64,000 nucleotides of DNA from Bacillota bacterium (GTDB lineage: Bacteria; Bacillota; Clostridia; Christensenellales; Pumilibacteraceae): the NCBI GenBank assembly GCA_009780325.1, contig WRAF01000001.1:61048-125047 (forward strand), read 5' to 3'. Under the pieces are notes generated by a model. That model did not search any database, was not told where the DNA came from, and saw nothing but the letters and a program-made list of their open reading frames with translations. The translations under genes were made by a program, and so were the position numbers. Below are positions 1 through 61,988 of this stretch, piece by piece. Each line of letters starts with the position of its first letter. Within the stretch, counting starts at the first letter, position 1.

Positions 1-2
1 GG

Positions 3-623
3 CTTTGTTACAGCACGGACGGCACAACTCACGCCACACCAAACAACAAACCGTGGTATAAAGAAGTCTTAATAACTGACCTACGCAAAGAAGAGATAGA
101 TAGGCATTACGCAGTATTGCGTGTGCCTATTTCTTTTACGGCATTATCCCGTTGGAAACAAGACATAGAGATAACGCTAGAATTAGCACGAACAGGAACG
201 CCCCTAACTTTCCCTTATGTGTATCCGTATTTTTTCGGTGGCAGTAACAACATGGCTGTCGAGATAGTCAATAACGGCTTGCCGACAAGTGCAAGGATAC
301 GCACGGAGGGCATAACCGACACGCCGTTGTTTCGTCTTATACGAGATGGCAAGATTTTGTCGCAAGCAAAATACCATCTTACAGTTGGGGCTAATCAGCA
401 TCTTGTTATAGACAGCGACCCTGCTAATCAAGAGGCGGCACTCTATACACAAAACGGCAACAACCTAATCCGTGAAGATGTCTATAATGCAGGCGAGGCG
501 GATTATGCGTTTGCAAATTTTATATCAATCCCGAGCGGAACGAGTTGGTTTTTGGCAAGCGCGACAAATGCAAATTTTGGGAGGGTACAAGTCAGCATGA
601 GTTGGCTAAAAGAATTGTTATGA
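3..623 (+). CDS. phage tail/baseplate protein, 5' truncated by window edge
   Basis: Frame is open from the left edge (LCYSTDGTHATPNNKPWYKEVLITD...); ends in an ATGA overlap with the next phage gene; precedes other tail genes. Confidence 0.55.
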   Translation, partial: LCYSTDGTTHATPNNKPWYKEVLITDLRKEEIDRHYAVLRVPISFTALSRWKQDIEITLELARTGTPLTFPYVYPYFFGGSNNMAVEIVNNGLPTSARIRTEGITDTPLFRLIRDGKILSQAKYHLTVGANQHLVIDSDPANQEAALYTQNGNNLIREDVYNAGEADYAFANFISIPSGTSWFLASATNANFGRVQVSMSWLKELL

Positions 624-1693
624 CAAGATACAAAATATACGACCGCTTAACGCTAGAATTAAGAGATAGCGGAGTGGTGCGAGATTATGTTGTGGACTTA
701 GATTATTTGACCAACAATAACTCAACAATGCGCCTAGTGCGAGAGAGTAAAGGTTTTAAGGGCGACATTCTAGCGATTAGCGAGGGAGTAGACCTAATCG
801 CTTTGGGCGTAATAACGGCAATAGACAACACGGAACTGCGTATACAATTTAAGCACATGAAAGAATTGTTTAACGATTCAATCTTAAATGTCTTTAAGTG
901 GACGGGTCTGCTAGACAAAAAGTTTGATGCCGTGCAGGGGTTAAGAGTGCTAATAGAATACGCCTTTATAAACACCACTGACAGCCTCCGCAGGCTACCG
1001 CTAACCATCCGCACCTTTGGGCAAAACCTAAACGCCGTGTGGATAGACGACAGCGATACAATTGATATGCAGTATTTTATTGATTGGTGTTTTGACCATT
1101 ACAATATTTATATCAACTGCGATATTGACTTTGCTAACAAGCGAATAATAGTGGATATTATTAAAAACGACACCGAGGGGCTTATCTTAAAAGACAATAT
1201 AAAGTTATCTAAACCCGAGTTTGACAGCCAAGAGTTGCCCCGAGAGAACAGGGCTTTGCTATTCAATAAGTACACAGGGGTAATCGTTAATAGTTGGTTT
1301 TTGTTACAAAATAACACGCTAACAACAAACGCCAACCACCCACAAAGGCTTTATCCCGTATCCACACGCCATGTCGAGTGGGATGAAGTGGATGCGATAA
1401 GAGAGGGATACACTCAAGAAGATTTAGTCAAAAGCGAGATTCAAGGCAATGTCTACAACCACTGCGTACAGGTGCAACTAGCCAAAAAGCAAACAATGAT
1501 GCCTGCACGGCGATTTAACTACGGCGACCAAGTGCGAATTGTGTACGAGGGCAGGAGTTACGATACAATCTTCACAGGTCTAAAATTTAGAAAAGACAAT
1601 CCATTCTACACCTGCATATTCGGTCACGCTCGCATAGACTTTACCGACCGAATGAAGATATTCAATAAAAGACAATACCAAAGGAGGACTTAA
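620..1693 (+). CDS. phage tail/baseplate protein (siphovirus Gp37-like)
   Basis: ATG at 620 overlaps the upstream TGA; the longer ORF-track start (545) lies inside the upstream gene; position between tail genes. Confidence 0.6.
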   Translation: MTRYKIYDRLTLELRDSGVVRDYVVDLDYLTNNNSTMRLVRESKGFKGDILAISEGVDLIALGVITAIDNTELRIQFKHMKELFNDSILNVFKWTGLLDKKFDAVQGLRVLIEYAFINTTDSLRRLPLTIRTFGQNLNAVWIDDSDTIDMQYFIDWCFDHYNIYINCDIDFANKRIIVDIIKNDTEGLILKDNIKLSKPEFDSQELPRENRALLFNKYTGVIVNSWFLLQNNTLTTNANHPQRLYPVSTRHVEWDEVDAIREGYTQEDLVKSEIQGNVYNHCVQVQLAKKQTMMPARRFNYGDQVRIVYEGRSYDTIFTGLKFRKDNPFYTCIFGHARIDFTDRMKIFNKRQYQRRT

Positions 1694-1694
1694 A

Positions 1695-2630
1695 ATGGGA
1701 TTTTTCTTAAAAGGCTTGGGAGACCCAGCTACAGGGCATAACGAGATTTTGCCCAGCTTTGATGCAGCGATATATGCGTTTCTAGCCCAGAACGCAGGAG
1801 GCGTATGCAACAGCGGAGCAAACTTTGCCGCCACCACAACCGATAGGGGCGTGAGTATCAATAGCGGATTATGTTATGTAAACGGCTACTTTGGTATGAG
1901 CGATAGCCCTACAATACTCAACTTTAATTTCCCGAGTGGCTCGGCACAATTTGCTAGAGTATTCGCAGAAGTTAATTTATCCGTTACACCGCATAGGTTT
2001 AGCGTTAGGGCAACCAATCAATCAACATCTAGCAACATACAACTTACGCAAGATAATCTAAGTATAGCCGCAAGCGGACTGCATCAAATACCGCTGTTTT
2101 TGGTGCAACTCAATAACAATCGCACCATAACAATAACCGACCAACGCAATATGCTACATCGTATCGCAGAGGCTCAAAACGCCGTTCACTTAACAGGCAG
2201 TATAGCCAACGCCGCCACAGCCACAACGCAGACGGCGAATAACAATTCTACCCGAGTAGCGACAACCGCATACGCCGACAGGGCGGCACAAAATGCCTTA
2301 AATATAACCACCGCCTCTATCGTTGGTGGCAATGGCACTGTTAGGAGGCAGGGCAATTTTGTCATTCTTAACGGCACAGGCACAGCAGGTGTCGTGCCAG
2401 AGGGCTTTCGTCCACGGGCGACAGTAGCGATAGGGGCGAACGCAGGGTTGAGTGGGCAAGCGATGGCACAGTGGCCAGAGATGACCAATGTGTCGGGAGC
2501 AGTTATGGGTAGTGTAACAGCGGCAGGCGTTATAAGTATCGCAGGGCAAGTTATGGGCAGTGGTAGCAATATCGCTGTTTTTGCAGGCATAAGCGGAACA
2601 GTAACTTATAACGGAGGATGGGAGGTTTAA
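1695..2630 (+). CDS. phage tail fibre/tail protein
   Basis: RBS AAGGAGGA; tail-fibre-like segment TTQTANNNSTRVATTAYADRAAQNAL; Gly/Ala-rich C-terminus. Confidence 0.6.
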   Translation: MGFFLKGLGDPATGHNEILPSFDAAIYAFLAQNAGGVCNSGANFAATTTDRGVSINSGLCYVNGYFGMSDSPTILNFNFPSGSAQFARVFAEVNLSVTPHRFSVRATNQSTSSNIQLTQDNLSIAASGLHQIPLFLVQLNNNRTITITDQRNMLHRIAEAQNAVHLTGSIANAATATTQTANNNSTRVATTAYADRAAQNALNITTASIVGGNGTVRRQGNFVILNGTGTAGVVPEGFRPRATVAIGANAGLSGQAMAQWPEMTNVSGAVMGSVTAAGVISIAGQVMGSGSNIAVFAGISGTVTYNGGWEV

Positions 2631-2665
2631 GTGAAGAATTTAGACAATAGGAGGATTTGCCGACA

Positions 2666-5600
2666 ATGGCACAAATAAAAATACGGTTATTAAGTAACCG
2701 AAGAAACCAAGTAGAAATGGCAAACCGCCATAAACTTATAGCAGGCGAGAATTTATCCACTGCAATAAGAGTAGAGTATCCACCCGAGTTTGAGAGCCAC
2801 TCAAAGAGGGTGGATTTTCTTAACGAGCGAGGCGAGAAATGGACGATAGGATTATATACGCCCGAGTTTAACGATTACGACATAGACTTTGACCGCTTAA
2901 AATTGAGCTTCAAACTCCCAAACGAGGTAACAGTAGACGGCGAATTGACAGTGCAGTTTTTGGCGTATTTACCTCACGAGCATATTATAACGCCGTTTGA
3001 TGTCGTATCGTTTGTAATAGAGCGAGGCATTATGTTTGGTAAGCGCAGAGCGCAAGACAACCCAGATTTGCTTGTTAGGAGTTTTGAGCATTCAGTTTGG
3101 GCAGTAGATACAGTCCGTCAAGCCGTTAAGGATGTAAGGGAGGCAGAGGGCGTAGCCAACGAGGCTTTGGAGGTTGCGGAGGAGGCGTTGGCACTTAGCA
3201 AAGATGCCAAAGATTTATCCATGCTAGCCGAGAGCCACGCCCTAGAGGCAAGAGGCGATGCCAACGCAAGTGCGTTGTCTGCTCAAATTGCAGAAGAAAA
3301 AGCAATAGAGGCTTTAGAGAGTGCAGAGCAGGCAGAGGCAAATTCTCTCGAGGCAAAAGACCAAGCAACGCAAGCACAAGAGGCAGCAAGCGAGGCACAG
3401 CACCAAGCAACGCTGTCGGCAGGCAGTGCAAGTGAGGCTCGTGAGGATTTGGCGACAAGTAAAGAGTTGGTGGCAGAGGCAATGCAACAAGCCACCAATT
3501 CTGCTAACAGTGCAAGCGAGGCAGTACAACTAGCGGAGGATATAAAGGCAGTGGCAGTAGCCACAACCGAAGAGGCACTCACGCTTATTGCTAGTGCAGA
3601 AGCCCAAGCAACAGCCAGTGCAGATTCAGCAAGTCAAGCCTTAGCAAGGGCAGAGGCGGCAGAGACAAGTGCAGTCAATGCTCAAGCTCAAGCTACCAAC
3701 GCCAACCAACGGGCAACTGATGCAGAGCAGGCGGCAAGCAACTCGGCACAGTCTGCAAGTCAATCCGCCCAATCTGTTTTAGACAGCGAGGCAAAAGTTG
3801 CAAAGGCTCTAGCTTTAGTGCAAGAGGCAAATGCTAGTGCAACAGCCTCTAAAAATTCAGTTAGCCAAGCCGAGCAATCTGCCCTAGATGCAAAAGCAAG
3901 TGCCGTTGTAGCGGAGGCTCAAGCGACACAAGCGGCGACAAATTCTGCTAGTGCCTTGACCCGAGCGGAGGCGGCAGAGGCGAGTGCAAGCAGTGCCAAC
4001 ACTAGGGCAGGCAATGCAGAAACCTCTGCAAGCCTAGCCCGAGAGGCAGCCGATACCGCCGAGGCAATGGCGATACAATCAGCAAGCAATGCTAATCTTT
4101 CAGCTCAATCTGCAAGCGTAGCGGAGGCAACAGCAACCAATGCCGCCAACATGGCTAACACCGCCATGACCCAAGCAACGCTCGCAAGAGAGGCAGGTCA
4201 AGCAAGTGCAGTTAGTGCAGGTATAGCAGAGGAGCGAGCGACAGCCGCCGTGCAGTTAGCTCAAGTTGCCACCGACAAAGCAACGCTTAGTAAGCAAGCA
4301 ACGATAGATTCAGCCAATAGCGCCGAGCAAGCAAAAGTGTCCGCTCAAGCAGTTGAAGACGGTGTAGCACTTGCAAACACTCGTGCCAACAACGCCGAGG
4401 CAAGTGCAACGGCGGCACAGCAGTCAGCGAGTAATGCGGAGGCGAGTGCGACACAAGCCCAAGCAAGTGCAAGCACAGCCCAGACCCAAGCGACCAATTC
4501 TGCTAACTCTGCCGCCCAAGCAAATACAAGAGCAGGCAACGCAGAGGCGAGTGCAAGCAGTGCTAACACTCGGGCTACTAATGCCGAAACCGCAGCCACC
4601 CAAGCACAAGCAAGTGCGACAGCCGCTCAAACATCAGCGAGCAACGCACAAGCTAGTGCCAACACGGCAAGCACGCAGGCAACCAATTCTGCCAACAGCT
4701 CGGCAAGTGCAAACATCCGAGCCACAGCCGCAGAGACAGCGGCGACCAACGCCCAAAACTCGGCACAAGTGGCACAGCAGGCGGCAATAGATGCTGCCAA
4801 CAACGCAGGCACTCGGGTAACAGTAGGCGGAGTGTTTCAACCAAACTTTAACGCCGACACTCGTATCGCCAACTCGGCAGGTGCAGTCACTAACACGCAT
4901 ATCGCCAACAATGCTGTTCGCAATAACCATATTATAGATGCAGGTGTAACAGCGGCAAAGATAGGTGCAGGGGCAGTAACGGCTAGCCATATAGCAGACG
5001 GCAATGTTACTAATACCAAAATTGCAACCAACGCTGTCCGCACAGCACATATTCAAGATGCCCAAGTAACCGCCCAAAAAATGGCGAGTAATGCGTTTAC
5101 AGCAGTGCCGAATATCTCAACTGTTTTTGCAACGCCCGATAATGCCAACACCAACGGACTTAATGCAGGCAGTGCGAGGCGGATATACCAAACATTAAAT
5201 TTGCCAACCACAACTACGGGAGTACCCGACTGGCCTGTAAACTTTAATGATGTAACAATCCCCGGAACTTATCTTTATACCAACACGCAATACTCTATGA
5301 TTACAAGCCTCAACGCTCCCGACTGGTCAAGGTTTGGCTCAAGCAACAGTCGAGCAGTTCTAACAGTAATGAATACGCACCTAAGCGGAATATTTCAAGA
5401 ACTAACAGCATGGAGCGGAACTGCAACGCAGGGCGTGGCAAAATGGATGAGGTCAAGGGCTAACGCAAGCAGTTGGTCTTCGTGGGTGGAGGCAGGCAAT
5501 TCAGCAGGATTGTCGGTTTTGCAAACGCAAGTCAATACTGTTCAAACAACAGCCAACAGTGCAAACGCCACTGCAACATCAGCGGCAAATGTCGTAAACG

Positions 5601-6151
5601 AAATTCAAGCAAGGTTTGGTCAAACCGCAGGAACGGATACGGATGCCAACAGTGTTATTCACTCAAGGATATTCACAGCCAACAACGCTATCAGCCATAA
5701 CTTGCCGACAGGTCTTGCTCAAGGCGTATTACTAAGTATGGCACGCAATACCACAGTAAATGCCCAGCTTTATATGCCTGCTACCAACGCAACCGAGAAT
5801 AATGGTAGAGCGTTTGTTAGAGCAAAGGGAGCAAGCACCACTCACAGCACATGGCGAGAACTATTGACTGCACCGCAGTGGGCTAGCGGACAAACGGGTT
5901 TTATTCGGTTTGTTAATGGCTTTCAGTTAGCATGGGGTCGCATTAGTTTTGCAGCCAATCAACCGCAAAACACTTGGACTTATCCAAGAGCTTTTACAAA
6001 TATATTTCAAGTCCAAATGACAGCGTGCAGTGCAAGCACGCCTGCCGCTTTTTCAAATATAACTATGAGTAATTCAAGTATAACTCTTAGAACAAATTTT
6101 CCAAACGCTCACGCCTGTATGCTTTTTGCAATAGGCAGAGCCGACAGTTAA
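2666..6151 (+). CDS. large phage tail fibre with baseplate-upper-protein-like N-terminus, Ala-rich coiled coil and C-terminal receptor-binding region
   Basis: AGGAGG RBS before ATG 2666; long Ala/Ser/Gln/Glu heptad-like repeats, then xHIxxxxVTxxKI repeats, then a globular C-terminus. Confidence 0.7.
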   Translation: MAQIKIRLLSNRRNQVEMANRHKLIAGENLSTAIRVEYPPEFESHSKRVDFLNERGEKWTIGLYTPEFNDYDIDFDRLKLSFKLPNEVTVDGELTVQFLAYLPHEHIITPFDVVSFVIERGIMFGKRRAQDNPDLLVRSFEHSVWAVDTVRQAVKDVREAEGVANEALEVAEEALALSKDAKDLSMLAESHALEARGDANASALSAQIAEEKAIEALESAEQAEANSLEAKDQATQAQEAASEAQHQATLSAGSASEAREDLATSKELVAEAMQQATNSANSASEAVQLAEDIKAVAVATTEEALTLIASAEAQATASADSASQALARAEAAETSAVNAQAQATNANQRATDAEQAASNSAQSASQSAQSVLDSEAKVAKALALVQEANASATASKNSVSQAEQSALDAKASAVVAEAQATQAATNSASALTRAEAAEASASSANTRAGNAETSASLAREAADTAEAMAIQSASNANLSAQSASVAEATATNAANMANTAMTQATLAREAGQASAVSAGIAEERATAAVQLAQVATDKATLSKQATIDSANSAEQAKVSAQAVEDGVALANTRANNAEASATAAQQSASNAEASATQAQASASTAQTQATNSANSAAQANTRAGNAEASASSANTRATNAETAATQAQASATAAQTSASNAQASANTASTQATNSANSSASANIRATAAETAATNAQNSAQVAQQAAIDAANNAGTRVTVGGVFQPNFNADTRIANSAGAVTNTHIANNAVRNNHIIDAGVTAAKIGAGAVTASHIADGNVTNTKIATNAVRTAHIQDAQVTAQKMASNAFTAVPNISTVFATPDNANTNGLNAGSARRIYQTLNLPTTTTGVPDWPVNFNDVTIPGTYLYTNTQYSMITSLNAPDWSRFGSSNSRAVLTVMNTHLSGIFQELTAWSGTATQGVAKWMRSRANASSWSSWVEAGNSAGLSVLQTQVNTVQTTANSANATATSAANVVNEIQARFGQTAGTDTDANSVIHSRIFTANNAISHNLPTGLAQGVLLSMARNTTVNAQLYMPATNATENNGRAFVRAKGASTTHSTWRELLTAPQWASGQTGFIRFVNGFQLAWGRISFAANQPQNTWTYPRAFTNIFQVQMTACSASTPAAFSNITMSNSSITLRTNFPNAHACMLFAIGRADS

Positions 6152-6181
6152 TCAATAAAAAATTTATAGGAGTAACCAATT

Positions 6182-6691
6182 ATGCCAAAAAAAGAAAAAG
6201 AGCCAACGGCTCACGAAGAACTGCGACTAGCCCCCGAGGCAGTCGCAGAGCAGATAGAACTAGACCCTCCGCAAGTGAGGGTTTTTTCAATCAACGAAGA
6301 CCAATCCATTATTAAAGGCGGACAAGTGTTTGTAAGCGTCACGGAATTTCTAACCATAGAAGACCGAGACCGCCATACAGCAAGACACCCAATCATGCAC
6401 TTAATGGCGGCATCCGTCCACGAGGCAATCGCCCAAGACCACACTTTGCAAAACACGCTATATCCGTTAGTTCAACGCATACTGCTCCAAGAGCAAATGC
6501 TGTCAAGCATAGCAGAGTTTGAGCCACTTATCCCTTTCGGCTTTGACCCCTCGTGGATTCTACAACCAATCCGCATAGTAGGCGACAGCCTAATCCCAAC
6601 GGGCAACTTTGACCCACAACCAATAACAAGACAGTTTTTAATAAACCAGTTGCAATGTGCAGTCGGACACGACATCTGCAACTGTAGATAA
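6182..6691 (+). CDS. phage hypothetical protein downstream of tail fibre
   Basis: ORF with RBS AGGAG, collinear with tail genes. Confidence 0.6.
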   Translation: MPKKEKEPTAHEELRLAPEAVAEQIELDPPQVRVFSINEDQSIIKGGQVFVSVTEFLTIEDRDRHTARHPIMHLMAASVHEAIAQDHTLQNTLYPLVQRILLQEQMLSSIAEFEPLIPFGFDPSWILQPIRIVGDSLIPTGNFDPQPITRQFLINQLQCAVGHDICNCR

Positions 6692-6720
6692 GCGCAACAA
6701 GCGCATGGAGGAATAACAAT

Positions 6721-7038
6721 TTGACTGAAATATTAGTAGCAATAATTTGCACAGTAATAACCGCATTAAGCGGAGCGATACTATATTTTCTGCAACGCCA
6801 CTTTAAGCGAGTAGAAAAATATACCGAAGATGCAGACGAGAGGCGTACAAGAAAAGACCTACTTGTCTTAAAATCTCTCAAGGCTATAGGCGACTTAACA
6901 GTCGCAAACGCCACCGCCATACGAGACGGAAAAACAAATGGATGCACAAAAAAGGCACTAGCCGACTACGAAAGCGTTGAAACCGAACTCAACGCTTTTT
7001 TGCTAGAGAGTGCAGTAAAAAAGGTAAACAAGAAATAA
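6721..7038 (+). CDS. holin-like phage membrane protein
   Basis: TTG start with GGAGG RBS; single N-terminal TM (ILVAIICTVITALSGAILYFL) plus charged tail; follows tail fibre. Confidence 0.5.
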   Translation: MTEILVAIICTVITALSGAILYFLQRHFKRVEKYTEDADERRTRKDLLVLKSLKAIGDLTVANATAIRDGKTNGCTKKALADYESVETELNAFLLESAVKKVNKK

Positions 7039-7051
7039 GGGGAGGAATTGA

Positions 7052-7300
7052 ATGCCACGAAAAAAGTATTACAAGTCTAAGAAAATAATAGAGACCTATG
7101 ACTACCTCCCACCGCCGAGGAGCAGAGTCTATGCCAACTCAACTATTATAAAAGAAGAGCCTGTAAAAGTGGGAGGCAACAAATATCTTATGCGGACACT
7201 TTCCTGTGGAGGCATAGAGTTAGTTCGCTACGACCACACAGCCAACAAGTGGGCAGTGCTTTGCTTTAGCGGAATAGAGACACAGGCGGAGGCGGCATAA
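7052..7300 (+). CDS. small phage hypothetical protein
   Basis: 82-aa ORF with GGGGAGGA RBS, same operon as holin-like gene. Confidence 0.5.
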   Translation: MPRKKYYKSKKIIETYDYLPPPRSRVYANSTIIKEEPVKVGGNKYLMRTLSCGGIELVRYDHTANKWAVLCFSGIETQAEAA

Positions 7301-7435
7301 ATAATTAGAGAAATTAGCGATAATTAGACTAATTTTAGATAATTAGCCATAGTTAGAGATAATGACAACTAATTACTACAATTAGCGACAATTAAAAAAA
7401 TTATGGCTAATTAGAGCAATGTCAAAATAATTAGA
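7301..7435. repeat. AATTAG/CTAATT-rich short repeat block
   Basis: About seven AATTAG and several CTAATT words in ~130 bp between the phage operon and the recombinase gene. Confidence 0.6.
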
Positions 7436-7437
7436 GA

Positions 7438-7474
7438 GGGCGAGGCAACAATAAAAGTTGTTTCGCCCTTTCTT
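7438..7474 (+). terminator. Rho-independent terminator
   Basis: GGGCGAGGCAAC / GTTGTTTCGCCC stem followed by TTTCTT. Confidence 0.7.
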
Positions 7475-7568
7475 CATTTTATCGCAAGTCTTCGCTGGAC
7501 TTGTTTACAAGCTCTGCGGCATGATGTGTCTGCCGCTTGGGTGGCAATAAAATTAGGAGATTGATTAT

Positions 7569-9299
7569 ATGCAATTACAACAACAAACACAAACAAGACC
7601 TAGAGCAGTTTTGCTCTATAGGGCATCTAGCAAGATGCAAACTGACAGCGAAAACGACATACCACTACAAAGAAATATCCTAAAGCCGTGGGCAGATAAG
7701 CAATGGGATTTTGTAAAAGAATTTGTGGAGGGAGGCGTTTCAGGATACAAGGTTTCTGCCGCCAATAGAGATGCCTTGATAGAAATTAAGGCAATGGCAG
7801 AGAGAAAAGAATTTGATGTCTTGGGAATTTATATGAGCGACCGCTTGGGTCGTATAGCGGACGAAACTCCATTAGTTGTTTCATTTTTGAATAGCCATGG
7901 CATTAAAATTGTTTCATACTGCGAGGGCGAAATTTCTGCCGTAAACCATACGGATAAACTTTTAACATATATTCGCTACTGGCAAGCGGAGGGCGAGAGT
8001 TTGAAAACGGCAGCTCGTTGTAGAGATGCCGCCAAGCAAAATGCCCTAAGAGGTGCATGGTATGGAGGGAGCGTGCCTTTTGGTTACCACCTTGTTTCAA
8101 GAGGCACACTAAATTACAAAGGCAGGCCGATTTTTGATATTGAAATAGACCCAGAGCAATCTAAGACAGTAAAAGAGATTTTTAGACTTTATGGCAAAGA
8201 AAACTATGGCTCAAGAATGTTGGCACAAGAGCTTAACGACAGAGAGCTTTTGGGTAACAACGGCAAACTATGGACTTCATCGCATTTGACAAGATTTTTA
8301 AGACACCCGTTATATGCAGGAGTGCTGGTGCTTAACAGGAAGAGAAAAGTTGACGAAAAGGATAGAGTAAAATCGCCTGTAATACCACATTTACAAATTA
8401 TATCCACCGAAGACTGGAATGAGGTGCAAAAGAAAATTGATGCCAACCGAGGCAACCAAAGACCACCGACAAGGTTTGGCAAACTTCTTCTAACTGGCTT
8501 TACTTTTTGCGGACAATGTGGCGAAAAGATAACAAGCATTACTTCAATCCATAATACCAAAGCAGGCAACCCTAATGAAATTGACCATAAAAAGCATAAG
8601 TATAGGTGCAGGCGATATTATACACCCGTTACGGCTCGTCCTCGTTGCGAAACTTCTTCATGGCGTTCTGGCGATATTGACGATTTAGTAATACAGGATG
8701 CAAAAGAATTTTTGCTAAGTACCGACAAAGAGGCACTGGCAACATCGCATGAAACCGAAGTGAGACTAAGGCTTGAAGAGGCAACAGCAAGACACAGCAA
8801 GGCAAGTCAAGAGGTAGATAAAAAAGAGCGTGAGGTTGCTAAGATTAAAGAAGAGGTGGTAAAAGCACTTGTAGGCGATAGTACATTTAGTCAAGACACC
8901 TTATCTCAAATACTGATAACAAAAGAGAGAGAATTGCTAGAGGCAAATAGAATGCTTGATGTCGCCCAAGAAGAAGTTTTCCAAATTGATACTGAACTAA
9001 ATATGTATGCAATAATTAAGGAAGAGGCAGCAGGATGGGCAGAGCGATTTGACGAGGCAAGCACAGCTGATAAAAAATCTATGCTTATAAACATCATAGA
9101 CAGTATAACACTTTACAAAGATGCGATAGAGATTAAATACAAAGTAGAACTAAAATCCGAAAACAAAGTGAGTACGATAGCCCCCGATTGTGTCAGTGTT
9201 AGCGAAGAACTCGCCCAAACACCCCATTTTTTTACCCAAAATATGCAAAAAGCTAGCACAACCCAAAGGGAGAGTCGAAGGAGTGGTAAATTTTTGTAA
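7569..9299 (+). CDS. large serine recombinase (resolvase-recombinase-zinc beta ribbon); C-terminus apparently replaced by out-of-frame istA sequence
   Basis: N-terminal LLYRASSKMQTDSENDIPLQR...YMSDRLGRIADETPLVVSFL; recombinase domain GSVPFGYHLV..., zinc ribbon CGQCGEKI...CRRYY, C-terminal coiled coil; AGGAG RBS. Confidence 0.85.
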   Translation: MQLQQQTQTRPRAVLLYRASSKMQTDSENDIPLQRNILKPWADKQWDFVKEFVEGGVSGYKVSAANRDALIEIKAMAERKEFDVLGIYMSDRLGRIADETPLVVSFLNSHGIKIVSYCEGEISAVNHTDKLLTYIRYWQAEGESLKTAARCRDAAKQNALRGAWYGGSVPFGYHLVSRGTLNYKGRPIFDIEIDPEQSKTVKEIFRLYGKENYGSRMLAQELNDRELLGNNGKLWTSSHLTRFLRHPLYAGVLVLNRKRKVDEKDRVKSPVIPHLQIISTEDWNEVQKKIDANRGNQRPPTRFGKLLLTGFTFCGQCGEKITSITSIHNTKAGNPNEIDHKKHKYRCRRYYTPVTARPRCETSSWRSGDIDDLVIQDAKEFLLSTDKEALATSHETEVRLRLEEATARHSKASQEVDKKEREVAKIKEEVVKALVGDSTFSQDTLSQILITKERELLEANRMLDVAQEEVFQIDTELNMYAIIKEEAAGWAERFDEASTADKKSMLINIIDSITLYKDAIEIKYKVELKSENKVSTIAPDCVSVSEELAQTPHFFTQNMQKASTTQRESRRSGKFL

Positions 9300-18055: not shown

Positions 18056-18413
18056 ATAGTATAGGAAAAATTGTCTGCGTGAAAAGTAGATAGCAAGGTA
18101 AACTAGCTGACCAGCAGTATAAAAGAGAGTTCTAAAAAGACCAAAGTGCTTGTCTACACAAAATTGGGCAAGCAAACGCAAAAAGTGTTGACACCTAGCA
18201 TCAACACAAGACGGAGGAGAACAGGGAGCTACAGAAGGGCAACATAATGGGCGGAGTTTGTCAAGATTTAGGTGAGTTGGCAGGAGAGGTATTGCTTAAA
18301 AATGAAAAAAGAAAAGAAACTTTTAAAAGATTAATTGAAAAACTGTGTTAATAATTTTTTTTAAAAAAACACATAAAAATCATATAAAATAAAAATTTCC
18401 CCTGTTCAAACAC

Positions 18414-18445
18414 TTGACAGACGACGACGACGACGACGATATACT
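18414..18445 (+). promoter_or_regulatory. candidate promoter with (GAC)n spacer
   Basis: TTGACA (18414-18419), 20-nt spacer GACGACGACGACGACGACGA, TATACT (18440-18445). Confidence 0.6.
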
Positions 18446-18506
18446 TAATATTAATATAATTTACATAAAAAATGTGGATAACTTTATATTAAGGGAGAAA
18501 TTAAAA

Positions 18507-19058
18507 ATGAAAATATTACCACCTACCAATCCAAACGCAAAAACTTCTAAATGGGCAACGTTTTTTATACTAGCTGTCATTGGAAATGTTTTGGCTATAG
18601 TCGGACTAATTCTTTGGCAAACTGTGGAGGCGGCAAACGATGCAGGCATTTTGATGCTTGCAGGCGGGTTAATTATAATTCTTATCTTTAGCACTTTAGC
18701 CTGGAAGCCTAGCAATACTACACTTAAAAAGGTGCTTACTATAATTACGGCGCTTTGGATGTTTGTTGCTGCAATTATTTTTTATGCTATTATGGGACTT
18801 GTCGGCGGAGCGTCAGCAGCATTGCCTGATGTTAAAAATGAAAATAATAATAAGCTAAAGCAAGGAAATGAAGAGTCGAAAAAATATAATACTACATATC
18901 AAAATGGGGCGGCAATAGTTAAAGATGGAAGCAATAAGGTTGTGGGAAGCTATAAAGAAGGTAGAGCGTACGATAAAGATGGTAAAGAGTTGGGGGGATA
19001 TTATGGGTCAGATACTGCCGAAAAGCTGATTCAAGACAATGACAAAAAACATAATTAA
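18507..19058 (+). CDS. multi-TM membrane protein with C-terminal DKDG-type repeats
   Basis: ATG 18507 with AAGGGAG RBS; hydrophobic segments; NGAAIVKDGSNKVVGSYKEGRAYDKDGKELGGYYG tail; ORF-track start at 18414 is only translated repeat. Confidence 0.65.
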   Translation: MKILPPTNPNAKTSKWATFFILAVIGNVLAIVGLILWQTVEAANDAGILMLAGGLIIILIFSTLAWKPSNTTLKKVLTIITALWMFVAAIIFYAIMGLVGGASAALPDVKNENNNKLKQGNEESKKYNTTYQNGAAIVKDGSNKVVGSYKEGRAYDKDGKELGGYYGSDTAEKLIQDNDKKHN

Positions 19059-19364: not shown

Positions 19365-19438
19365 TGGAGCGGGCGGCGGGAATCGAACCCGCGCGGCTAG
19401 CTTGGAAGGCTAGAATTCTACCCCTGAACTACGCCCGC
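19365..19438 (-). tRNA. tRNA-Gly (TCC)
   Basis: Reverse complement GCGGGCGTAGTTCAGGGGTAGAATTCTAGCCTTCCAAGCTAGCCGCGCGGGTTCGATTCCCGCCGCCCGCTCCA folds as a cloverleaf with anticodon TCC and encoded CCA. Confidence 0.95.
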
Positions 19439-19514
19439 ATTTTAAATCTAACCTAGGCAGTATATACTATTTTTTTTTAACTGTCAAGCGGATTAAGCTT
19501 ATTTTTTAAATAAT

Positions 19515-60994: not shown

Positions 60995-61988
60995 AATGAG
61001 ACAATTTAATTTAAGAGGAGGCTGTATGTGCAATCGTCATTCTGATAGTGATGGAGGCAGGAGAAATCTATTTGGTGATGAACTAGATGAGGAAATAGAT
61101 GATGACATGACTCAATTTTTAAATGAGAGAAATGATTTTTCGGGTGGGCGAAGAGGTGTTGAGAGAGGTGAAGATTTAAATGAGCATGATAGAGGAGAGG
61201 GAAGATTTGATGGAGATTGTCGTAGAGAGAGAGATGGAAAGAGAGTTTGCTTTACTGTGCCAAGGGGTGAAAGAGGTGAGCGTGGTGAGAGAGGATTGAG
61301 AGGTGAGCGAGGAGAAAATGGTGCAAGGGGTGAAAGAGGTGAGCGTGGATTAAGGGGCGAGCGTGGTGAGAGAGGTGAAAGTATTAGAGGCGAGCGTGGA
61401 CCTAGGGGTGAGCGTGGTGAGAGGGGCGAAAGAGGCGAGAGAGGACCTAGGGGCGAGAGGGGTGAAAATGGGTCTGGTGCAAGTGCTATAATTCCATTTT
61501 CATCAGGCTTGCCAGTTGATCTTACTACAGATTGTGGTGACCGTCGTGGACATGGAGCTTTCTTAGGTTTTGGGCATTCTACAACAAGCCCTATGCGCTT
61601 AGATAATACTATCGATATTAGCGGAGCACCAGGCATAAATATTGATTTTGCATTTTGTGTGCCAAGAGATTGTCATGTAACTGCAATGAGCGGATATTTT
61701 AGCACTGCATTGCCAGTGGATGCTAGGTGCGGCGTACAGATTGTGGCTCAATTATATCATTCTGAACATGATAATAATATTTTTAGCCCGATTGAAGGAG
61801 CACGCTTATTACTTGAGCCTAAGTTATGTGATAGAAATTGCAATAGCGGGATAAGGGTACATGCGACAAGGGATGATATAAATGTGAGATTGAGAGCCGG
61901 AACAAGAGTTATGATGGTATTTTATGCAAGGGCTAGAGAATTGCATACGGTAGTAGGATATGCAAGTGCGGGTATTGTGATTGAGTAG
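60995..61988 (+). CDS. collagen-like repeat protein with BclB-like C-terminal domain
   Basis: GGAAGGAG RBS; 23 Gly-X-Y triplets dominated by GER; C-terminal AIIPFSSGLPVDLTT...GFGHSTT resembles exosporium BclB C-terminal domain. Confidence 0.8.

Follow-up and report, generated by a model that had tools for sequence, protein, structure and literature searches.

Recurrence of a promoter with a GAC-repeat spacer

The question raised by this locus is what a pure trinucleotide repeat is doing between two good promoter hexamers, and whether its length tunes transcription. The initial annotation of the window (the whole 64 kb stretch of DNA that was analysed) described a TTGACA and a TATACT hexamer around a 20-nucleotide spacer consisting only of GAC repeat, and direct inspection of the sequence finds this description exact (Table 1). 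Tandem Repeats Finder returns the spacer as a perfect period-3 array; it is the single site in the 64 kb that matches (GAC)5 with up to two mismatches, and none of 100 dinucleotide shuffles of the window contains any (GAC)5 match. Sites resembling DnaA boxes lie on both sides of the promoter. The only copy of TGTGGATAA in the window is at 18473, downstream of the promoter; the upstream site is weak when taken alone, and the equivalent position is occupied in most of the other cassettes described below.

Table 1. Features of the repeat-spacer promoter and the gene behind it, in window positions.
Feature	Position	Strand	Remark
Upstream DnaA-box-like site TGTTAATAAT	18346..18355	+	7/10 matches to TGTGGATAAC; 68 bp 5' of -35
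Pre -35 motif CAAACAC	18407..18413	+	Family consensus AAAWCRC adjoining TTGACA, 29 cassettes
-35 hexamer TTGACA	18414..18419	+	Sequence
20-bp spacer GACGACGACGACGACGACGA	18420..18439	+	(GAC)6 at 18420-18437, then GA
-10 hexamer TATACT	18440..18445	+	Sequence
Downstream DnaA-box-like site TGTGGATAAC	18473..18482	+	33 bp past -10 start
Ribosome-binding site AAGGGAG	about 18491..18497	+	Read from sequence
Gene for 183-aa small membrane protein	18507..19058	+	ATG at 18507; lineage-specific

The gene behind the promoter was thought to encode a membrane protein with a repetitive tail. The product is indeed a small membrane protein, with some three hydrophobic stretches, but the repetitive tail amounts to at most two weak imperfect repeats, AAIVKDGSNKVVGSYKEG and RAYDKDGKELGGYYG. 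No Pfam family scored above the cut-off for the downstream proteins of the window's genome, and we dismissed weak scores to Tetraspanin, BIRC6 and Pox_I5 as chance. An orthologue of the gene, sought as a possible cassette-free version, was absent from 80 relatives except for one weak match of 30%.

Some other features of the window were noted. The region upstream of the cassette (18060-18350) is intergenic and has a short ORF-like remnant, MGGVCQDLGELAGEVLLKNEKRKETFKRLIEKLC, without a clear gene. On the minus strand at 19459-19487 there is a TTGACA-17-TATACT promoter, directly 5' of an apparent minus-strand tRNA gene (approximately 19368-19440), which is an ordinary strong promoter with optimal spacing and contrasts with the repeat-spacer promoter. 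The composition of positions 1-8000 (GC 0.467 and AT skew 0.217, with GC elsewhere about 0.30-0.36) suggests an rRNA operon, and dense degenerate tandem repeats at 61261-61467, made of GGTGAGAGA-like 9-mers with periods of 9-63, could code for a Gly-Glu-Arg collagen-like stretch.

A search of the window's own genome yielded six such promoters, five with (GAC)6 and one with (GAC)3, each in front of a different sequence; genome-wide, the pattern TTGACN{1,3}(GAC)4 has five sites versus one for the reversed pattern. The five (GAC)6 copies have TTGACA as -35 (TTGACTA in one), TATACT or TATAAT as -10, and spacers of 20 or 21 bp, and the small ORFs behind them encode the 183-aa protein, a coiled-coil membrane protein, a 112-aa protein, a lipoprotein and a zinc-ribbon membrane protein. 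Apart from the boxes, their flanks are unrelated, and the presence of six units in all five full copies amid unrelated flanks points to selection for length rather than free slippage. The (GAC)3 copy (L012:5403-5426) has phased box-like sites on both sides and no intact ORF close downstream; it is possibly a decayed locus.

Distribution of the cassette

Altogether we identified 29 distinct GAC cassettes in eight genomes, from at least three families of one order, with forward matches far above the reversed-pattern control; to judge by its many families and its genome sizes, the order is probably GTDB Christensenellales. Among 100 relatives the motif is present in three, one from the same family (G020) and two from another family of the same order (G073 and G100), with four or five matches each. 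A wider scan, with a single genome per species and 85,462 species in all, used a pattern restricted to TTGAC, four or more units of GAC and TATA; convincing cassettes were found in only seven MAGs (Th196P3bin37, Lab288P1bin95, Co191P1bin89, Iy174_bin51, Im510_bin91, Po218_bin63 and PG1894_211). The Th196, Lab288 and Co191 prefixes denote the higher termites Termes hospes, Labiotermes labralis and Cornitermes sp. (PMC7024585), and a higher-termite gut source is confirmed for these three MAGs. As Co191P1bin89 belongs to family f29, the GAC cassette spans families f1, f14 and f29; an identical core, CGCTTGACATA(GAC)6G, occurs in all three and almost nowhere else. Matches from other phyla in the global scan (L063, L070, L072, L074 and L076) lack the motif context and were rejected as coding or chance. 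The promoter pattern had no match in viral contigs, and there is thus no sign of a phage element.

At most cassette sites a ribosome-binding site and an ORF follow the hexamers. Those downstream genes that can be classified encode DUF4190, TM2, zinc-ribbon, Listeria-Bacteroides repeat and GNAT proteins; many others encode small membrane proteins that fall into no class, and a few cassettes are not directly followed by a clear ORF. In 23 of 24 cassettes (L231-L250 and the window, judged from neighbourhoods of 16-64 kb) the GAC (or G) strand is on the positive-GC-skew, leading-strand-like side, although genes in such genomes share the positive-skew bias and the cassette strand bias may be a mere matter of gene orientation.

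Consensus anatomy and spacer lengths

The 29 GAC cassettes share the core AAAWCRC-TTGACA-(TA)-(GAC)n-G-TATAMT. Positions immediately before the -35 are strongly conserved, with A at -6 and -5 in all 29, A at -7 in 27, C at -3 in 26 and C at -1 in 27. Two types can be distinguished, TTGACA(GAC)nGA in the window's genome and G103, with a spacer of 3n+2, and TTGACATA(GAC)nG in the remaining genomes, with a spacer of 3n+3.

Unit number is six in 18 cassettes, three in six, four in three and seven in two, giving spacers of 21 bp (14 cassettes), 20 bp (four), 12 bp (six), 15 bp (three) and 24 bp (two). The modal length, n=6, therefore gives a non-optimal spacing. In a search that admitted any n of at least two, n=5, which would give the optimum of 17-18 bp and is the predicted ON state, was seen in none of the 29 GAC cassettes. 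Repeat spacers of 17-18 bp are found only in poly-G or poly-C promoters of relatives, and cassettes with tetranucleotide units have spacers of 13 or 21 bp, never 17.

Flanking DnaA-box-like sites

Of 28 cassettes, 23 have an upstream site and 25 a downstream site that agrees with TGTGGATAAC at eight or more of its ten positions, compared with about 1.2 and 1.1 in shuffles, but the box consensus was picked after the cassettes had been seen, and the enrichment is therefore partly circular for those sites that suggested it. Upstream sites mostly start 56, 66-68, 76-79 or 88 bp before the -35, and downstream sites mostly 13, 22-24, 32-36 or 54 bp past the start of the -10; the steps between these distances are one helical turn. 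With recent duplicates removed, the distances cluster at a period of 10.5 bp (Rayleigh R of 0.83 for 20 upstream sites and 0.79 for 22 downstream sites, p<0.0001); at neighbouring periods of 9.5-12.5 bp R is lower, though still significant. Phasing played no part in choosing the box consensus. In n=6 cassettes the distance from box to box is also near whole turns; we rejected box-to-box looping as a requirement, since each box keeps its phase with the hexamer closest to it whatever the value of n.

The DnaA box is the 9-mer TTATCCACA (PMC8203912), of which TGTGGATAA is the reverse complement. One of the cassette-bearing genomes (G104) has two copies of TGTGGATAAC between divergent dnaA and dnaN genes, whose products were recognised by eye from the protein sequence. 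Most boxes in the window's genome read TGTTAATAAC or TGTTGATAAC, and for this reason the assignment of the sites to DnaA is one that we infer. Pairs of TGTGGATAA were also noticed just upstream of an apparent mraZ, identified by eye, at L095 (G100) and L105 (G073). Across the 396 genomes searched within the order, only 17 consensus promoters have an exact downstream TGTGGATAA; in six or seven of the 17 the spacer is a tandem repeat.

Changes of repeat number and unit

Unit-number comparisons, for which each species is represented by one consensus assembly, show differences between closely related copies. Two cassettes of G100, C47 and C88, are alike throughout apart from some substitutions and a single GAC unit (n=6 versus n=7), and the orthologous promoters of a TM2 protein (72% identical between the two genomes) have four units in G073 but three in G100. 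C47 and C88 are duplicates that carry their genes with them, as are two cassettes of G020 (d and e).

The unit itself also varies. G020 has one (GGC)n cassette, with a spacer of 21 bp and the same flanks and boxes, alongside its five GAC cassettes. Further versions have a GGCT unit (G366, 21 bp), GAGC and AAGC units (G382, 13 bp) or a poly-G spacer (G614, 17 bp), with downstream boxes. Four near-identical dispersed cassettes in G240 have tracts of G9, G9, G7 and G8, corresponding to spacers of 16, 16, 14 and 15 bp, with boxes present. Taken with the recurrence as six cassettes in the window's genome, these varied repeats in relatives look like a family of adjustable switches and not a curiosity of one gene.

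G382 belongs to the same order and its genome measures 1.2 Mb. It contains, in addition, eight or more TTGACA/TATAAT promoters whose spacers, 17-22 bp long, are poly-G or poly-C and which lack DnaA-like boxes (L131-L135 and L138-L140). These are apparently classical homopolymer phase-variable promoters.

Interpretation of the cassette

Changes of unit number and of unit type between copies are what a promoter tuned by spacer length predicts, and this idea, put forward in the initial annotation, is the most likely reading of the sequence comparisons, at what we judge to be roughly even chances. The description as a repeat-length-tuned promoter agrees with the consensus hexamers, with the ribosome-binding site and ORF at most sites and with the recurrence in 29 copies, as well as with the pairs of close copies and orthologues that differ in unit number and the replacement of GAC by other units. 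What does not fit is a freely switching locus, given that the five full copies of the window's genome all have n=6 and that the predicted ON length was not seen.

We propose, with confidence about evenly balanced, a promoter family in which the tandem repeat would set spacer length and thereby strength, and in which a box-binding factor would provide a second control. The cassette comprises a DnaA-like box, an A-rich stretch of about 55-90 bp that runs up to AAAWCRC, then TTGACA, the repeat and TATAMT, followed after 13-54 bp by a second DnaA-like box and then the ribosome-binding site and gene. The hexamers are at or near consensus, and the repeat keeps them mis-spaced, at 20-21 bp with n=6 and at 12, 15 and 24 bp with n=3, 4 and 7; slipped-strand replication would add or remove whole units and move the spacing toward or away from 17-18 bp, with a corresponding change in promoter strength, and a six-unit cassette that lost one unit would have a spacer of 17 or 18 bp. 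The helically phased boxes would confer the second, protein-mediated control, for which DnaA is the simplest candidate. This model presumes that the promoter is used, that with n=6 it would be weak or OFF without help, and that unit changes are frequent enough to matter within a population; the (GAC)6 tract is short and probably only moderately mutable. The absence of n=5 may have either of two explanations: the ON state could be rare or costly and hence missing from consensus assemblies, or n=6 could be the working state of a promoter that needs the box-binding protein.

The latter possibility leads to a serious rival, namely a regulated promoter of fixed length, in which the over-long spacer of 20-21 bp is inactive alone and a protein on the two phased boxes is required or, in a variant, a protein acts like MerR on the stretched spacer. 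Selection would then keep n=6, there would be no switch, and the n=3 and n=4 copies would be decayed or differently regulated. We regard this as possible, if less probable than spacer tuning. The predominance of n=6 (18 of 29 cassettes, and every full copy in the window's genome), the missing optimum, the helical phase of boxes on both sides and the n=3 copy that lacks an intact ORF close downstream all argue for it, but it leaves unexplained why the spacer should be a pure tandem repeat, why GGC, GGCT, GAGC, AAGC and poly-G can stand in its place, and why n differs between near-identical copies; the MerR-like variant would also have to operate on a spacer without a dyad-symmetric operator.

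An alternative explanation for the conserved repeat is that a DNA-binding protein or alternative sigma factor recognises the GAC tract directly, with the length of the tract corresponding to the number of contacts. The same triplet is present on the same strand at 29 sites in eight genomes, adjoining the conserved AAAWCRC, which speaks for such a reading; we nonetheless consider it improbable and set it aside because GGC and other units replace GAC, in G020 with the same flanks and boxes beside five GAC cassettes, and elsewhere as tetranucleotide and poly-G versions, and n ranges from three to seven. Recent spread of a copied cassette, by horizontal transfer or gene conversion and with a repeat that has no function, is a little more improbable again. 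It could account for the core that is identical in three families and for the pairs clearly duplicated with their genes in G020 and G100, but the window's genome keeps the core and the phased boxes amid unrelated flanks, and spread alone would neither keep helical phase at several distances nor yield the same design with other units. Coincidence or a coding repeat can be given hardly any credence. At the window copy an in-frame TTG start reads MTDDDDDDDIL, open into the gene, as though the tract encoded a poly-Asp N-terminus, but at L009 and L011 tract and gene are in different frames, the chance expectation is zero and the 29 copies are in promoter context; the frame at the window copy is a coincidence.

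Spacer-length tuning by the repeat thus remains our preferred interpretation and, if correct, a set of small envelope proteins and lipoproteins of termite-gut clostridia would be switched stochastically, with a possible tie to replication, and ON and OFF loci could be predicted from sequence. Should the length prove to be fixed, the cassettes would represent a new kind of promoter architecture, where flanking boxes rescue a spacer of 20-21 bp. A more elaborate possibility, which we think rather unlikely, is a genome-wide regulon of contingency promoters in gut clostridia, whose consensus hexamers are mis-spaced by a slippage-prone repeat and which are gated by DnaA on the helically phased boxes at either side; rare mutations of repeat length and the replication state of the cell would then together determine how lineage-specific envelope proteins are expressed.

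Comparison with known systems

The DnaA-trio of bacterial oriC, whose 3'-(G/A)A(T/A)-5' triplets lie close to a DnaA box and at a constant spacing from it, resembles the cassette in having a trinucleotide repeat beside such a box. We rejected it as a model, as the cassette triplet is 3'-CAG-5', the box lies at a variable 13-54 bp from the -10, and the whole is a promoter with a gene behind it. MerR-family promoters have spacers of 19-20 bp, a dyad-symmetric operator within the spacer and a need for the factor. Of the 29 cassettes, 18 have an over-long spacer of 20-21 bp between good hexamers, which would need a factor to work, and the others have 12, 15 or 24 bp. The spacer at the window copy is a direct (GAC)6 repeat without an inverted-repeat operator, and the boxes are outside the hexamers.

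Promoters regulated by DnaA include those of dnaA and nrdAB (review PMC8203912). The cassettes resemble these in that boxes matching TTATCCACA flank the promoter beyond chance, and differ in the tandem-repeat spacer and in the frequent use of TGTTAATAAC or TGTTGATAAC in the window's genome. We know of no tandem-repeat spacer among known DnaA targets.

Promoter-spacing phase variation is known, as far as we are aware, from single loci in a few pathogens. Variable -10/-35 spacing is described for porA of Neisseria meningitidis (van der Ende 1995, cited in PMC5084427) and a phase-variable promoter of changing spacer length for hif of Haemophilus influenzae (van Ham 1993, cited in PMC5084427 and PMC7098570). 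The likeness is that a simple sequence repeat lies between the -35 and the -10, and gain or loss of units alters spacer length; the cassettes correspondingly have a pure tandem repeat between recognisable hexamers and differ in repeat number among near-identical copies or orthologues. The porA and hif repeats are homopolymeric or TA, whereas the cassettes have triplet and tetranucleotide units, are multi-copy and conserved, and have DnaA-like boxes in helical phase on both sides. Their commonest spacer length is not the optimal one, no GAC cassette has the optimum, and the lineage is one of gut clostridia. Searches of the literature on Christensenellales and phase variation, and on promoters with simple-sequence-repeat spacers of variable length, found nothing. 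As far as these searches show, what is new is that the cassette is multi-copy, has triplet and tetranucleotide units, carries phased boxes and belongs to this lineage. The initial annotation had noted neither the family of cassettes nor the DnaA-box-like sites beside them with their helical phasing. The spacing device known from porA and hif may thus occur in several gut bacteria as a reusable cassette.
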